A stretch of DNA of 51,503 bases. It comes from Bacteroidota bacterium. GTDB lineage: Bacteria; Bacteroidota; Bacteroidia; Flavobacteriales; Schleiferiaceae. A model generated the notes under the pieces. The model did not search any database. It saw only the letters and a list, made by a program, of their open reading frames with translations, and was not told the origin of the DNA. The stretch is from the NCBI GenBank assembly GCA_003045825.1, contig PZPA01000003.1, positions 1-51,503 on the forward strand, in the 5' to 3' direction. Of the stretch, positions 17,038-44,274 are shown piece after piece (the first letter of the stretch is position 1; every line of letters starts with the position of its first letter). The translations under genes were made by a program, and so were the position numbers.

Positions 17038-18342
17038 ATGGGGACATTTAAAATTACGGGTGGCAAGAAATTAAAAGGTGCCATTACTCCGCAAGGTGCT
17101 AAAAATGAAACGTTGCAAATTCTTTGCGCAGTGCTGCTTACCGCTGAAGAGGTTCGCATTACAAACATCCCTGATATTGTAGATGTCAACAAACTCATTG
17201 ATCTCTTAGCAGATTTAGGTGTACATGTATCCAAGAATGGCCCAGGTGATTTTACTTTCAAAGCTGCGGTCGTCAATCTGGATTATTTGACCTCTGAAAC
17301 CTTTAAACAAAAAGGTGCCAGCCTGCGAGGCTCAATTATGATCGTTGGTCCTTTGTTGGCGCGTTTTGGAAAAGCTTATATACCGAAACCGGGGGGAGAT
17401 AAAATTGGCCGCCGTAGACTCGATACACACTTTTTAGGCTTCGAGAAATTAGGCGCTAAATTCCAATACGACGCAAAAGACACCTTCTACAGTGTCGATG
17501 CGTCCCAGCTTAAAGGCACCTACATGCTTTTAGATGAGGCATCGGTTACTGGTACTGCCAATGTGGTAATGGCCGCAGTAATGGCAAAGGGTAAAACAAC
17601 GATATACAACGCCGCTTGTGAACCTTATCTCCAGCAGTTGTGTAAAATGCTCGTTCGCATGGGTGCTAAAATCAGTGGTATTGGTTCAAACATGCTTCAT
17701 ATAGAAGGTGTTTCAGAATTGGGCGGTACTACCCACCGGATTCTACCTGATATGATCGAGATTGGCTCATGGATTGGAATGGCAGCAATGACCGGATCAG
17801 AGATTACCATCAAAGATGTGAGCTATCCTGATTTAGGAATCATCCCTACTGTATTCAGAAGGCTAGGGATTCATACCGAATTACGCGGAGACGATTTATA
17901 CATTCCGGCCCACGACCATTATGAAATAGAGAGCTTTATTGACGGGTCTATCATGACCATTTCAGATGCTCCATGGCCTGGATTCACACCTGATCTTTTG
18001 AGCATCATTTTAGTTACCGCAACGCAGGCAAGAGGTTCCGTTTTGATTCACCAGAAAATGTTCGAAAGCCGTTTATTCTTCACGGATAAATTGATTGACA
18101 TGGGGGCACAAATTATTCTTTGTGATCCGCATAGAGCCACCGTGATTGGACTTGATAAACAATCGCCTCTTCGTGCCACAACGATGACTTCACCGGACAT
18201 TCGTGCCGGAGTAAGTTTGCTTATTGCCGCGTTAAGCGCAGAAGGAACTTCTACCATTCATAACATAAACCAGATCGATCGCGGTTATCAAGACATTGAC
18301 AGTCGCCTCCAAGCATTGGGTGCAGATATCGTACGATTATAA
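17038..18342 (+). CDS. murA: UDP-N-acetylglucosamine 1-carboxyvinyltransferase MurA
   Basis: A 434-residue cytoplasmic enzyme that transfers enolpyruvate from PEP to UDP-GlcNAc, the first committed step of peptidoglycan synthesis. Lys22 and Asn23 (GAKNETL) match the substrate-binding pair of E. coli MurA. The active-site loop reads PGGDKIGRRRLD, with Asp121 where E. coli has Cys115. An Asp in this position is known from other bacteria (Mycobacterium, Chlamydia) and makes the enzyme insensitive to fosfomycin while active. The repeated inside-out alpha/beta fold is intact and the length is normal. Confidence 0.95.
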   Translation: MGTFKITGGKKLKGAITPQGAKNETLQILCAVLLTAEEVRITNIPDIVDVNKLIDLLADLGVHVSKNGPGDFTFKAAVVNLDYLTSETFKQKGASLRGSIMIVGPLLARFGKAYIPKPGGDKIGRRRLDTHFLGFEKLGAKFQYDAKDTFYSVDASQLKGTYMLLDEASVTGTANVVMAAVMAKGKTTIYNAACEPYLQQLCKMLVRMGAKISGIGSNMLHIEGVSELGGTTHRILPDMIEIGSWIGMAAMTGSEITIKDVSYPDLGIIPTVFRRLGIHTELRGDDLYIPAHDHYEIESFIDGSIMTISDAPWPGFTPDLLSIILVTATQARGSVLIHQKMFESRLFFTDKLIDMGAQIILCDPHRATVIGLDKQSPLRATTMTSPDIRAGVSLLIAALSAEGTSTIHNINQIDRGYQDIDSRLQALGADIVRL

Positions 18343-18353
18343 ATTTCAGATCT

Positions 18354-18920
18354 ATGAAATCCCTTAAACTTTTACTTTCGGGCACTACCCTAGTTTTCTT
18401 AGGATTGGTAACCACGGCTTCTCAAACAATCTACGAAGATGCTCGCCCCATTGAACACGCGTTCGATCAAATGGCAGCGGTAGGAATTGGTGATAAGGCA
18501 CCGGATATTGCAATGAGAGATCCTGAAGGAAACATTCGCAAATTGAGCGACCTCAAAGGTCAAGTCGTATTGATTGACTTCTGGGCCTCATGGTGTCGTC
18601 CTTGTCGCGCAGAAAACCCTAATGTGGTGCGCACTTACGCTGCGTATAAAGATGTTGCCTTTAAAAACGGCAAAGGCTTCACTGTGTTTTCTGTTAGCTT
18701 AGACCAAAACAAAGCGGCTTGGCTGAAAGGCATTCAACAAGACGGTCTGGTTTGGGACAATCACGTCAGTGACTTACAAGGCTGGAGAAATGCAGCTGCA
18801 GGTCTTTATGGGGTAAACAGCATTCCTGCTACCTACCTCATAGATGGAGATGGCGTGGTGATTAAAAGAAATCTGCGTGGACAAGCGCTAGAAAATACAC
18901 TGGCCAAATTGAAGAAATAA
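18354..18920 (+). CDS. TlpA/ResA-like thiol-disulfide oxidoreductase, exported
   Basis: A 188-residue thioredoxin-fold protein. An N-terminal signal sequence (about residues 1-23, ending TTASQ) points to the periplasm. The redox motif WCRPC is near residue 80 within VVLIDFWASWCRPCRAENPN, and the cis-Pro appears in SIPATYLIDGDG. Such proteins reduce or rearrange disulfides, for example in cytochrome c maturation or as peroxiredoxin-like AhpC/TSA relatives. It lies 11 bases after murA and is followed by a strong terminator, so it ends the pcrA-murA transcription unit. Confidence 0.85.
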   Translation: MKSLKLLLSGTTLVFLGLVTTASQTIYEDARPIEHAFDQMAAVGIGDKAPDIAMRDPEGNIRKLSDLKGQVVLIDFWASWCRPCRAENPNVVRTYAAYKDVAFKNGKGFTVFSVSLDQNKAAWLKGIQQDGLVWDNHVSDLQGWRNAAAGLYGVNSIPATYLIDGDGVVIKRNLRGQALENTLAKLKK

Positions 18921-18938
18921 TTGACCTCTGGTCATTTA

Positions 18939-18965
18939 GGCGCGGCGTTCCGCCGCGCCTTTTTT
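18939..18965 (+). terminator. Rho-independent terminator after the TlpA-like gene
   Basis: A perfect nine-base GC stem (GGCGCGGCG / CGCCGCGCC) with a TTC loop is followed by six T. It ends the plus-strand unit from pcrA. Confidence 0.93.
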
Positions 18966-18990
18966 ATGCCCAAAATTGCGCCTACGTAAA

Positions 18991-19021
18991 GCCTTTCGCT
19001 GACACGTTGTCAGCGAAAGGC
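18991..19021. repeat. Perfect 14-bp inverted repeat upstream of grpE
   Basis: The arms GCCTTTCGCTGACA (18991-19004) and its exact reverse complement (19008-19021) flank CGT. It has no T-tract on the plus strand and only TTT on the minus side, so it is not an ordinary terminator. It sits 25 bases after the previous terminator and 56 bases before grpE. It could be an operator, an mRNA hairpin or a small repeat element. It does not resemble the CIRCE heat-shock operator. Confidence 0.85.
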
Positions 19022-19077
19022 GACTTGGCTAACATTTTGCTTATTTACAAATAGAAGTGTAAAAAACTACCCCAAAG

Positions 19078-19653
19078 ATGTCTGAAAAGGAACAACATAA
19101 AGACGAAGAATTGAACCAAGAACAAGCAGAAACCCAAAGGGAAGAGCATCCGGAAAGTGCTGCTGAATCATCTGAAAAACAAGAAGTTGAAGATAATCCA
19201 ATTCAAAAACTTCAAGACGAAGTTCAAGACTTGAAGGATCAGAACTTGCGACTGTATGCTGAATTTGAAAACTTCAGAAAGCGCACCGCGAAGGAACGCC
19301 TTCAGATGATGGACAGTGCCAATAAGGACACATTAGCTGCATTATTGCCAGTTTTGGACGATTTTGACAGAGCGCTGAAAAACACTGAGGCCACTCCTGA
19401 AAACGAAGCTGTATTGGAAGGGTTAAAACTGATTCAACACAAGCTTGGTGAAACGCTCAAAAACAAGGGACTCATCGCTATGGAAAGCACCATTGGTAAG
19501 GCCTTTGATGTTGAGGAAATGGAAGCCATTACTCAAATCCCTGCACCAAGTCCTGAACTCGCAGGAATGGTGATTGATGAAGTAGAAAAAGGCTATAAGA
19601 TTGGTGAGCATGTATTGCGCTACGCTAAGGTAGTCGTGGGTAAAGAAGCATAA
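19078..19653 (+). CDS. grpE: Nucleotide exchange factor GrpE
   Basis: A 191-residue cytoplasmic cochaperone that releases ADP from DnaK. The first 45 residues are acidic and Gln/Glu-rich and probably disordered. The long dimer helix follows ([20 protein letters not shown]), then the family motif [13 protein letters not shown] near residue 60 and the C-terminal beta wing around [13 protein letters not shown] and [20 protein letters not shown]. One base separates it from dnaJ, the usual operon. An unusual inverted repeat lies upstream. I see no confident promoter box. Confidence 0.95.
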
Positions 19654-19654
19654 A

Positions 19655-20779
19655 ATGGCAAAAAGAGACTATTACGACATACTTGGTGTAACCAAAGGAG
19701 CTAGTCAAGACGAAATCAAAAAAGCCTACCGCAAGGTTGCTTTAAAATACCATCCTGACCGAAATCCTGATAACAAGGAAGCCGAAGATAAATTTAAGGA
19801 AGCGGCGGAAGCCTACGATGTGCTCGGCAACGAGGAAAAGCGTCGTAAGTACGACCAGTTTGGACACCAAGCTTTTGGCGCTGGCGCCGGCGGTGGTGGG
19901 TTCAACGGGAATATGAACGACATCTTTGATATGTTCGGTGACATCTTCGGCGGTGGCGGAGGTGGCGGCGGCTTTGGAGGCTTTGGTGGTTTTGGCGGTG
20001 GCGGTCAGCGTCGTCAAGCGAAAGGCTCTAATCTGCGTGTCAAGGTAAAATTGACCCTAGAAGAGATTGCTGAAGGGGTAGAAAAGAAAATGAAAATCCG
20101 TCGTGCCCGAATTGCTGAAGGTGTGACGTTCAAGACGTGTACTACGTGTAACGGTGCCGGACAGGTTCAACAAGTAACGAACACTATTTTAGGCCAAATG
20201 CGGACGGCAGCAACCTGTTCTACCTGTAATGGGAGCGGCAAAATTGTCGATCAAAAACCATCAGGTGTAGGTAGCGACGGTTTAGATCGAAACGAAGAAG
20301 TTGTAAGTGTTAAAATTCCAGCCGGCGTTCAAGACGGTATGCAATTACGTGTTGGTGGTAAGGGCAATGAAGTGCTCGGTGGTGTTGCCGGTGATTTGAT
20401 CGTTTTGATTGAAGAAATTCAGCACGAACAGCTCACAAGAGATGGAGAAAACTTGCATTTCGAACTGAATTTAAGTTTTCCAGATGCGGCATTGGGGACA
20501 CAAGTAGAAATACCTACCGTTAGTGGTATTGTGAAAATTGGCATCGACGCCGGCACTCAGCCTGGAAAAATCCTACGCCTTAAGAATAAAGGATTGCCTA
20601 GTGTACAAGGATACGGTAAAGGCGACCAATTAATTCACGTCAATGTTTGGGTACCAAAAAATTTAAATAGCGATGAAAAGAAAGCCATCGAGAAACTTAA
20701 AGGAAATGAGAATTTCGAGCCCAATCCCGGTAAGTCTGACAAAGGATTTTTTGACCGAGTAAAGGAGATGTTCTCTTAA
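19655..20779 (+). CDS. dnaJ: Chaperone DnaJ (type A) with a reduced zinc domain
   Basis: A 374-residue Hsp40 that delivers clients to DnaK and triggers its ATPase. The J domain has HPD at residues 33-35. The Gly/Phe-rich linker runs from about 74 to 120. The zinc domain has only two CxxCxGxG-type motifs (Cys162/165 and Cys188/191) instead of four; the outer two are replaced by [11 protein letters not shown] and PSGVGSDG. By position the remaining pair forms zinc site II, the one needed for work with DnaK, and site I is gone. The C-terminal substrate domains are intact. I believe this variant is common in flavobacteria. A terminator follows. Confidence 0.93.
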
Positions 20780-23977: not shown

Positions 23978-23986
23978 GTATTGAGT

Positions 23987-25150
23987 ATGAGCAGAATATT
24001 ATTGATTGAAGACGAGGAAGCCATTCGTCGTGTATTAAAGAAAATTCTCTTAGAAGAGGATGATTCTAACGACATTCACGAAGCGGCTGACGGTAAACAA
24101 GCCATCGAAGTATTTGGTGATGGCGCTTGGGATCTAGTATTCTGTGATATCAAAATGCCGCACATGGACGGTGTCGAAGTCCTTGAACGAATGATGGCTA
24201 TAAATTCTGAAGTTCCCGTTATTATGATTAGTGGGCATGGAGATATAAATACAGCTGTAGATTGTTTGAAGAAGGGTGCATTTGATTATTTACCAAAGCC
24301 CCCAGATTTAAATCGGCTGTTGAGTACTGTTCGTCACGCATTGGAAAAGAAAACGCTGGTTCAAGAAGTCAAAACGCTCAAAAAGAAGGTCAGTAAAAAG
24401 TACACCATGATAGGTGAAGGCACTGAAATGATGGAATTGCGCGGACTCATAGAGAAAGTGGCACCTTCTGAAGCGCGCGTTTTAATTACTGGTCCAAACG
24501 GCGCGGGTAAGGAATTGGTCGCCCACCAAATACACGAGCAAAGCGCCCGCTCAACGAATGCAATGGTAGAAGTGAATTGTGCTGCTATACCTGCAGAATT
24601 GATCGAAAGTGAGCTTTTTGGCCACAAAAAAGGAGCTTTCACGGGTGCTCAGAAAGACAGAAAAGGAAAATTTGAATTGGCCCATGGCGGTACACTGTTC
24701 TTAGATGAAATAGGCGATATGAGCTTGAGCGCGCAAGCAAAAGTTTTGCGTGCCTTGCAGGAGCATAAAATCACTCCTGTCGGTGGCGATCGCAGCATCA
24801 AGGTTGATGTACGTGTATTGGCGGCCACCAATAAAGATTTAAAAAGTGAAATCGCGGCCGGTAAGTTTAGAGAGGATCTTTATCACCGCTTAAGCGTAAT
24901 TCTGATTGAAGTGCCTGGATTGAATGACCGCAGCGACGACATTCCACTCTTGGCACAACACTTCTTACAGCAAATCGCCGACGACTATGGCGTTTCTTCG
25001 AAAGGAATCAGCGGCGCGGCCATAAGTGCATTACAAGGCTACGATTGGACAGGGAACATCAGGGAATTTAGAAATGTCATCGAACGCTTACATATTTTAG
25101 GCGGTTCAGAAATTAGTGCTGACGACGTAAGCACATACGCACGTAAATAG
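23987..25150 (+). CDS. Sigma-54-type response regulator without a DNA-binding domain
   Basis: A 387-residue NtrC-family protein. The receiver domain (1-120) has the acidic pair near residues 8-9, the phosphorylation site Asp54 (FCDIKMPHMDG) and Lys104. The AAA+ domain has Walker A GPNGAGKE (169-176), GAFTGA (216-221) for sigma-54 contact and Walker B LFLDEIG (about 237). The chain ends just after the AAA+ lid with no helix-turn-helix domain, so it probably activates from solution or through a partner. A TTG two codons upstream is an alternative start. It lies nine bases after the MscS gene; no histidine kinase gene is nearby. Confidence 0.9.
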   Translation: MSRILLIEDEEAIRRVLKKILLEEDDSNDIHEAADGKQAIEVFGDGAWDLVFCDIKMPHMDGVEVLERMMAINSEVPVIMISGHGDINTAVDCLKKGAFDYLPKPPDLNRLLSTVRHALEKKTLVQEVKTLKKKVSKKYTMIGEGTEMMELRGLIEKVAPSEARVLITGPNGAGKELVAHQIHEQSARSTNAMVEVNCAAIPAELIESELFGHKKGAFTGAQKDRKGKFELAHGGTLFLDEIGDMSLSAQAKVLRALQEHKITPVGGDRSIKVDVRVLAATNKDLKSEIAAGKFREDLYHRLSVILIEVPGLNDRSDDIPLLAQHFLQQIADDYGVSSKGISGAAISALQGYDWTGNIREFRNVIERLHILGGSEISADDVSTYARK

Positions 25151-30987: not shown

Positions 30988-31175
30988 CCCTAAATTCAAA
31001 AATCAATTGCGGTGGATGCATCGCCAAAGTACAATCGGACCTTAATGCCTTGTTGGGCGAAGGAAACTGGAGTGTTGATACCGCGCTTCCAAACAAACCT
31101 TTGACCTTTGCGGACGACGCAGATGTCGATGAGGTTCTTGATGTATTGGATGCACATAATATGATTGCCGACTAA
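30984..31175 (+). CDS. Small heavy-metal-associated (HMA) domain protein
   Basis: A 63-residue protein with one ferredoxin-like metal-binding fold. The metal site is CGGC (Cys9, Cys12) after KIN rather than the GMTC of classic copper chaperones. The pattern GEGNWSVDTALPNKPLTF matches small HMA proteins of Bacteroidota. It starts inside the last codons of copA (ATGA overlap), so it is translated with the pump and may act as a CopZ-like copper chaperone. The metal is inferred from context. Confidence 0.82.
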   Translation: MTLNSKINCGGCIAKVQSDLNALLGEGNWSVDTALPNKPLTFADDADVDEVLDVLDAHNMIAD

Positions 31176-32224
31176 TGCACATAGTGCTTCTTGCACGAAA
31201 AACCCTGTATACACAGCCCGGTGGCGATACAGTGCAAGTGGAAGAAACGGCTTCCGCACTCCGTCGTTGTGGCCATGAGGCATCCATCGTTTTAGCCGGT
31301 GATGCCCTACCGCGCAAAGCAAACGTTCTTCACGGCTTCAATCTTGGGAGACCTGCGGATCTTCTACCTTATTTTAGATCGTTCAAAGGCAAGAAGATTC
31401 TCAGCAGTATTTATGTCGATTACAGTCTTGCAGACCAGCAGCGTTTTCCAGTGCTCTATTCTTTGGTGGGAAAACACGGCTTAGAATATGTAAAGACGAT
31501 AGCTCGTGCACTGAACGGCAGCGATAGATTCCCAGGCGCGCAATACATGGCCGTTGGCCAAAAATCACAAGTGCGCACGCTATTGCGTTTAACCGACCTT
31601 TTGATTACCTCGTCAAAAAGCGAAAAAGAACGTATTCAAGATGATTTCGGGAGTCTTTCTTGCCGCGTAAAAACAGTGCCACTGGGGATTGGCGAATCTT
31701 TTTTAGAACCCTATGAGGAAGCAAAAGAACGCAAGGGTCTCTTACTTTTGGGCCGATTAGAATGGCTGAAAAACCAAAAAACCATTATTACTTGGGCCAC
31801 TGCAAATAATTGGCCCCTTACGGTGGTTGGTGATGCCAACACGAATCAAAGGAAATACTACAGCGATTGCCTCGCCCAAGCCGGGCCAACCGTGACTTTT
31901 CTGCCGTATACCGCTGGCGACGAACTGAAACAACTGCTTCGAACGCACCATACATTGCTCATACCTTCGCACTTCGAAACCTTTTCGCTAGTGGGCTGGG
32001 AAGCCGCAGCACAGGGCATGCAAGTGCTTTACAATGACGTTGCAGACATGAATGAAACCCTCGCTCCTATAGGCACGGCCCTGCAACTTAAGAACCAAGC
32101 TGAAGCTCAAGAGAGCATCGACGCAGCGCTCCAGGAGAATGTAGGGCAAAAAAAATCCCACGATCTGCTCGAGAGCAGATCGTGGGACACTATCATTTTA
32201 GCCTTGCTTGAAGCGTACGCTTAG
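31175..32224 (+). CDS. Glycosyltransferase, GT4-like
   Basis: A 349-residue cytoplasmic glycosyltransferase of the GT-B fold. The N-terminal half opens with MHIVLLARKTLYTQPGGDTV, a nucleotide-sugar enzyme type start. The C-terminal half has LLLLGRLEWLKNQKTII and LLIPSHFETFSLVGWEAAAQGM, the ESFGLxxxEAxAxG-like donor-binding motif. The sugar and acceptor are unknown; a surface polysaccharide role is likely. Its ATG shares one base with the stop codon of the HMA gene. The last 23 codons contain a minus-strand terminator hairpin serving the convergent lipoprotein gene, and the two stop codons abut. Confidence 0.85.
   Translation: MHIVLLARKTLYTQPGGDTVQVEETASALRRCGHEASIVLAGDALPRKANVLHGFNLGRPADLLPYFRSFKGKKILSSIYVDYSLADQQRFPVLYSLVGKHGLEYVKTIARALNGSDRFPGAQYMAVGQKSQVRTLLRLTDLLITSSKSEKERIQDDFGSLSCRVKTVPLGIGESFLEPYEEAKERKGLLLLGRLEWLKNQKTIITWATANNWPLTVVGDANTNQRKYYSDCLAQAGPTVTFLPYTAGDELKQLLRTHHTLLIPSHFETFSLVGWEAAAQGMQVLYNDVADMNETLAPIGTALQLKNQAEAQESIDAALQENVGQKKSHDLLESRSWDTIILALLEAYA
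32148..32187 (-). terminator. Minus-strand terminator inside the glycosyltransferase gene
   Basis: A perfect 15-base inverted repeat (TCCCACGATCTGCTC and its complement, 2-base centre, 32156-32187) is followed on the minus strand by eight T (32148-32155). It lies 37 bases after the stop codon of the lipoprotein gene and entirely within coding sequence of the opposite-strand gene. On the plus strand no T-tract follows. Confidence 0.85.
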
Positions 32225-32779
32225 TTATCTACCCGCGCGCTCCATCTCTTTTTCATACGTCTCTTTGAACTTCTCATAGTTGTAGTCCACCATGATCTTA
32301 TCGTTCTTGCTCAAGGCCTTATAGTAATCTTTCACGATTTTCTCACCGTCCAATTCTATGGCGATGTAGTATTTAAACTTACCACTAGACTGAACCTGTG
32401 TAACGCGGTCGCACACTACAACCGCACCACTGATACGCTCGTTAATTACCGTACGAGAATTTTCTTCGAAACGCTCCAATACCTCTTCAACATTATTGAC
32501 TTCCATGCTCTTCACATAGTTGTCCGCAACCACCTTCATGGTACTGTTTACCATTCCTGCAAGTTCAGTACGCGCATTGCTCAAGGCTTTCTTCTTGGCG
32601 ACGTTCATATCCGCACTTTCACCGAAGCTATAAACACGGAACGTCTTGTTATCGCTTTTAAATTCTGAACAAGGCAATACTTGCTCTATTTCGCCTTTAG
32701 GCACTTTTGTTTTAGAACCACAGCTGGCAAATAAAAGTCCTGCACTGACAATGGCCACTAAGAGAATTCTCGCTTTCAT
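32225..32779 (-). CDS. LPP20-like lipoprotein
   Basis: A 184-residue predicted lipoprotein: the signal ends at LLFASC with Cys20 as the lipidated residue. The mature part has the pattern FGESADMNVAKKKALSNARTEL, typical of LPP20 / FlgO-like domains, followed by a long helix and a beta region ending in YYIAIELDGEKIVKDYYKAL. The function is unknown; an outer-membrane or periplasmic role is likely. It is separated from the upstream DUF1905-like gene by 81 bases in which I see no clear promoter box. It ends one base from the convergent glycosyltransferase. Confidence 0.8.
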   Translation of the reverse strand: MKARILLVAIVSAGLLFASCGSKTKVPKGEIEQVLPCSEFKSDNKTFRVYSFGESADMNVAKKKALSNARTELAGMVNSTMKVVADNYVKSMEVNNVEEVLERFEENSRTVINERISGAVVVCDRVTQVQSSGKFKYYIAIELDGEKIVKDYYKALSKNDKIMVDYNYEKFKETYEKEMERAGR

Positions 32780-44245: not shown

Positions 44246-44274
44246 AACCGCGGCCCGATGGGCCGCGGTTTTTT
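44246..44274 (+). terminator. Rho-independent terminator after ftsH
   Basis: An 11-base perfect stem (AACCGCGGCCC / GGGCCGCGGTT) around GAT is followed by T. It lies 26 bases after the ftsH stop codon. Confidence 0.92.

Follow-up and report, generated by a model that had tools for sequence, protein, structure and literature searches.

Promoters of the σ54 class require an activator in any case, and the classical σ54 enhancers lie at about −80 to −150 and tolerate changes of position. The described systems closest to the one reported here are those of the NtrC/PspF type. Common to both are a dyad some 17 bp long around a 3-bp centre, a GG-N10-GC promoter and an AAA+ activator with a Fis HTH, and our candidate activator, like PspF, is without an N-terminal regulatory domain. 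The difference is that the site described here lies at about −45 with nearly fixed spacing, against −80 to −150 in those systems, that the orientation of its half-sites varies, and that its targets are chaperone genes. The CIRCE/HrcA system, with the consensus TTAGCACTC-N9-GAGTGCTAA, also places an inverted repeat upstream of a chaperone operon, but the repeat here has another sequence, a 3-bp instead of a 9-bp spacer, and a place upstream of the promoter. In Myxococcus, HsfA is an NtrC-family activator driving σ54-linked heat-shock genes; our case would resemble it in having an NtrC-family activator on heat-shock genes. Is any such control described in Bacteroidota? According to the available part of PMC12316311, the chaperone cluster is enriched for σ54 promoters in this phylum, with grpE, dnaJ, groES and groEL enriched in Flavobacteriia and Hsp90 in Bacteroidia. 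With reference to a Blattabacterium genome paper, the same part describes σ54 dependence for grpE in both F. psychrophilum and B. thetaiotaomicron, and for groES in the latter species; it names no activator. The main text of PMC12316311 mentions no inverted repeat, palindrome or upstream activating site. A literature search by title and abstract start, with subscription papers mostly outside its scope, found neither the operator nor the activator described as a heat-shock regulator. The σ54 control of Bacteroidota chaperones has already been published, while the operator and the probable regulator are apparently undescribed.

The window, that is, the whole stretch of 51,503 nucleotides that was analysed, carries the following features of concern here.

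18938..18966, + strand: intrinsic terminator of the upstream gene, distinct from the repeat (stem 18938-18960, then a T-tract)
18991..19021, no strand: perfect inverted repeat with 14-bp arms and a 3-bp loop, the proposed activator binding site (operator or promoter-proximal enhancer)
19000..19012, no strand: conserved heart of the repeat, half-sites TGACA and TGTCA 3 bp apart, present in 24/24 genus grpE upstreams
19026..19041, + strand: σ54-type −24/−12 element TGGCTAACATTTTGCT, its GG-N10-GC given by TGGCTAACATTTTGC (19026-19040)
19078..19653, + strand: grpE, the gene proposed to be controlled (PF01025, E 5.7e-40)
19655..20779, + strand: dnaJ, the next gene of the operon (PF01556, PF00226)
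23981..25150, + strand: response regulator of the σ54-activator type without a DNA-binding domain (receiver, Sigma54_activat and AAA lid, no HTH; GAFTGA present)

The inverted repeat at 18991-19021 is real and beyond chance. It reads GCCTTTCGCTGACA-CGT-TGTCAGCGAAAGGC, and its arms (18991-19004 and 19008-19021) are 100% complementary around a 3-nt loop. Repeats with arms of at least 14 and loops of 3-8 number two in the window (the other is at 32156-32187) and none in 20 Markov-1 random windows. The repeat starts 30 bases after the end of the terminator stem and ends 56 bases before the grpE ATG (19078), so that it is flanked by the terminator of a thioredoxin-like gene and by grpE-dnaJ. The first-pass annotation had described perfect 14-bp arms around three bases at this distance from grpE, and the exact complementarity and the coordinates confirm it. 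It had also held that the repeat is separate from the upstream terminator and lacks a T-tract of its own, which agrees with the terminator scan and with the sequence: the repeat is absent from that scan, GACTTGGC comes next, and an intrinsic terminator is ruled out. The statement that the repeat is not CIRCE-like stands as well, for its sequence differs from the CIRCE consensus and does not fit it. No Rfam RNA family is assigned, as the 8 matches found up to E 5 in 18300-19700 are every one below the gathering score. Could the repeat be a dispersed element, as had been suggested? The 17-bp core GCTGACAN3TGTCAGC has a single mismatch-free copy in the 1.83-Mb assembly, and with up to 3 mismatches it is not in excess (34 matches per strand vs 48 for the reversed pattern). 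This suggestion is thus refuted.

There is a further question of which part of the repeat is kept in relatives. The genus set consisted of the window's genome and 24 relatives, GrpE identity being 85-87% in the five near ones; a grpE upstream was obtained from 24 of the 25 genomes (G011 had no grpE match). TGACA-N3-TGTCA is found exactly 13 bp before TGG in every one of the 24, and the TGG-N8-TTGC that comes next is kept too. In 23 of them the longer core, CTGACA-N3-TGTCAG, is free of mismatches; G020 has one. The information content is 1.81 bits on average for columns −8 to +8 around the dyad centre vs about 0.5-0.6 for the flanks and outer arms, so what is conserved is the core together with the promoter and not the long arms. 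The repeat proposed earlier for a check upstream of grpE in relatives is hence kept throughout the genus in its core, while its outer arms drift.

The site, its conservation and its fixed distance to the promoter are direct observations; the transcription start, at about 19051, is predicted, and would place the dyad centre at about −45. The pattern TGGC-N7-TTGCW has 38 matches in the window's genome, of which 30 were examined. Beyond grpE, only two of these 30 are outside ORFs of at least 70 aa, one upstream of a different gene (L078) and one with no gene downstream (L084). The −12 element is more variable elsewhere: in the genus groES promoters it reads TTCC, TTTC or TTGC, not uniformly TTGC, and many non-genus −12 elements read TTTGA. 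When compared with a classical enhancer, the site is not about 80-150 bp upstream with tolerance of position but mostly fixed 12-13 bp before −24. This promoter-proximal position is the main oddity of the model. Farther half-site pairs do exist, at 23, 32, 32, 42 and 43 bp from −24. For the pairs farther than 12-13 bp, no helical phasing is significant with all ten included (P = 0.21). With five pairs left, after removal of four judged to lie in terminator stems and of G055, where TGGA at 12 bp is apparently the true −24, P becomes 0.0016; this value is not counted as evidence because the removal was made after the data had been seen.

Does the same kind of site occur before other genes and in other genomes? 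Like σ54 enhancers, it recurs before promoters of its own class, namely before groES in the window's genome and across the genus, where all 22 groES upstreams have the strict form (spacing of 12-13 bp). Outside the genus, two TGNCA half-sites are found at an 8-bp interval, in most cases with 12 bp between them and TGGC, and their orientation may be inverted, everted or direct with the spacing unchanged, so that often no palindrome is formed. A blind search of 80 genomes (the window's own included) with TGNCA-N3-TGNCA-N12-TGGCA gave 56 matches in 49 genomes, and the reversed pattern gave 2. The gene behind the match is grpE in 22 cases (19 assigned by Pfam, two by coordinates in G027 and G037, one by the frame before dnaJ in G078), groES in 23 (6 by Pfam, 16 by coordinates, and one, at a contig end in G004, by similarity alone), htpG in 6 (all by Pfam) and secA in 1. 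In total, 51 of the 56 matches stand before three chaperone genes. For the last four, no family was identified downstream; each falls within a frame of 126-323 codons free of stops.

Counted gene by gene within 260 bp upstream, the strict form is present before 41 of 58 grpE (shuffle expectation 0.005) and 22 of 37 groES (expectation 0.015). For the non-genus genomes alone, the numbers are 17/34 and 0/15 in the strict form and 23/34 and 1/15 in the loose form, with grpE near-misses such as those of G050, G051 and G055, one letter off at 12 bp, tallied as misses. One non-genus groES, that of G059, is among the blind matches despite the 0/15 of the strict upstream count. Paired half-sites at any spacing are found in four non-genus groES, three of which (G039, G040, G049) look like terminator arms. 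When one mismatch is allowed, the strict N12 pattern matches groES and nothing else in the window's genome, so no wider regulon is shown there. The absence of the strict form from 17 of the 34 non-genus grpE and from all 15 non-genus groES of the upstream count is a point against the model, as is the variable −12 element. Nevertheless, the idea of an operator for stress control of a chaperone operon, put forward in the first-pass annotation, gains support from the constant spacing to a σ54-type promoter in all 24 genus genomes and from the relaxed form at grpE, groES and htpG order-wide; unrelated genome-wide copies, for which a check had been proposed, are not in excess, and the order-wide form is mostly before chaperone genes. 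The σ54 promoter and an activator are additions to that earlier reading.

Which protein might bind the site? The window's genome has an rpoN gene (PF04963, C54:12636-13208, E 3.5e-52), and RpoN was detected in 59 of the 60 genomes searched, among them G051; the exception, G007, is 74% complete, and G074 was outside this search. The genome encodes two genuine σ54 activators (GAFTGA, AAA+), only one of them with a DNA-binding domain, besides three weaker activator-domain matches in other ORFs (E 6e-9 to 2e-4). The activator with a DNA-binding domain, on contig C56, has no receiver domain and ends in a Fis-type HTH. Its gene order is miaB - activator - lptE - TPR-like 402-aa gene (no Pfam match) - secG - groES - groEL, with miaB and groEL named by eye, and the order in G074 differs little, the 402-aa gene being absent (genes named by eye). 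Both places are known in 21 genomes, and in 18 of these the gene of the Fis-type activator is at most 4 kb upstream of groES and shares its strand; the three others are G044, G047 and G048. The protein was read in 26 of 29 chosen genomes, with partial sequences for G044 and G057; of the three left, G012 and G055 have activator matches of fitting length and G078 (86% complete) has none listed. In seven of the 29 (G043, G046, G047, G051, G056, G058, G074) it is the only strong activator. The recognition stretch ISERTLYRKI is identical in all 22 aligned complete C-termini; outside the alignment, G035 has it too and G046 reads ISERTLYRKL. Among the best 25 NCBIfam families, the protein scores far below every curated activator cut-off.

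The other activator is the response regulator of the window. Its gene shares the strand of grpE and starts 4.3 kb past the end of that gene; in those genus genomes whose coordinates were compared, it is about 5 kb downstream of grpE, again on the same strand. The protein ends after the AAA+ lid, and is not likely to be the binder because it has no DNA-binding domain. All seven genus copies that were read, located by a GAFTGA-like pattern, keep the GAFTGA loop, but 11 non-genus copies have GAFTSA, GAFTTA or GSFTSA instead. The protein is possibly a second activator linked to stress; alternatively, its contact with σ54 may have been lost elsewhere. As a second and unexplained activator candidate in the grpE operon, it also counts against the model.

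Taken together, the place is a functional regulatory site, very probably linked to σ54, of a kind known in principle but unusual in geometry. We consider it likely, on the sequence comparisons above, that the repeat is the binding site of the groESL-linked Fis-type activator for σ54-dependent heat-shock transcription of grpE-dnaJ. It is observed that the site recurs before chaperone genes and that the genome has rpoN and the activator; the use of σ54, the identity of the binding protein and the induction by heat are what we infer. In this scenario, the C56 activator would bind both TGACA half-sites, whose centre is some 45 bp ahead of the predicted start. Its AAA+ ring would then open the closed complex that RpoN-RNA polymerase forms at TGG-N8-TTGC. 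The opening would turn on grpE-dnaJ, presumably under protein-folding stress. One guess, by analogy with other heat-shock regulators, is that the activator senses stress by chaperone titration.

One may ask whether a different protein occupies the dyad, such as a repressor that overlaps the promoter at its upstream edge and is released by stress. A protein in contact with polymerase would fit the place beside −24, a dimeric repressor would fit the palindrome seen in the genus, and the spacing is 13 bp in genus grpE and mostly 12 in the other sites. However, direct, inverted and everted half-sites at one spacing are odd for a simple palindromic repressor, a σ54 promoter would need its activator anyway, and a Fis-type activator is linked to groESL. 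We regard this explanation as unlikely.

Still more doubtful is a structural function of the long arms, as a hairpin in RNA or a cruciform in DNA, of which the conserved core would be a part. The predicted fold of the repeat is strong (−25.2 kcal/mol, z = −7.3, 0/200 shuffles equally good), and the outer arms pair beyond reshuffled arms, in 94 of 168 cells vs a shuffled mean of 63.7 with 0/10000 shuffles reaching 94, a test inflated by relatedness, the paired letters differing between lineages. But arm lengths across the genus range from 8 to at least 16 pairs, and nine of the 24 genomes have arms of only 8-9 pairs, including G020 with its mismatch inside. The non-genus half-sites often form no palindrome, and palindromes can be corrected by template switching, which could yield such arms in the absence of selection. 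As nine genomes manage without long arms, these are read as a genus-level elaboration, a palindrome growing around a fixed functional core. The hairpin suggested earlier is unlikely as part of the grpE message because the repeat is upstream of the predicted start, yet its outer arms covary. Finally, it is very improbable that the TGACA/TGTCA boxes belong to an ordinary σ70-class promoter and not to an operator: a σ70-like match, TTGTCA-17-TAACAT, overlaps the repeat, but TAACAT drifts in relatives (GAACAT, AGGCAT, TAGTAA) whereas TGG-N8-TTGC is kept, TAnnTTTG, the Bacteroidota −7 consensus, is not kept either, and two boxes 8 bp apart are conserved, not one.

To return to activation by the Fis-type protein, how far might it extend? 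It is somewhat more likely than not that the heat-shock response of Flavobacteriales has this receiver-less activator, encoded beside groESL, as its master regulator, and that together with RpoN the protein fills the role played elsewhere by RpoH or HrcA, acting from a promoter-proximal TGNCA-N3-TGNCA. For the chaperone genes of the order, the findings supply a specific operator, one candidate activator and a regulon that can be tested (grpE-dnaJ, groESL, htpG), and they suggest a promoter-proximal geometry of σ54 activation. Sites of this kind precede chaperone genes in many relatives, some of which have tiny, symbiont-sized genomes. If true, the master-regulator reading would explain why RpoN is retained in flavobacterial insect endosymbionts, other than by nitrogen control. 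In the available part of PMC3971599, Walczuchella, Uzinura and Blattabacterium are noted to keep RpoN, unusual for insect symbionts, and nitrogen use is tentatively suggested.

Some minor observations should be noticed. Two symbiont-sized genomes of the same order, G051 (0.34 Mb; 344,793 bases) and G074 (0.63 Mb; 629,662 bases), have paired TGACA/TGTCA boxes before groES, as TGACATTATGTCA 23 bp before TGGCA in the former and TGTCATAATGACA 43 bp before TGGCA in the latter. In the window, the second perfect repeat, at 32156-32187, has 15-bp arms. A run of A precedes it on the + strand, so that in the minus-strand direction it makes an intrinsic terminator complete with T-tract. This would terminate the minus-strand ORF 32225-32779, and it is situated within the 3' end of a convergent ORF on the + strand, 31175-32224. 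A perfect 11-bp hairpin at 44246-44270, followed by T's, is an ordinary intrinsic terminator.
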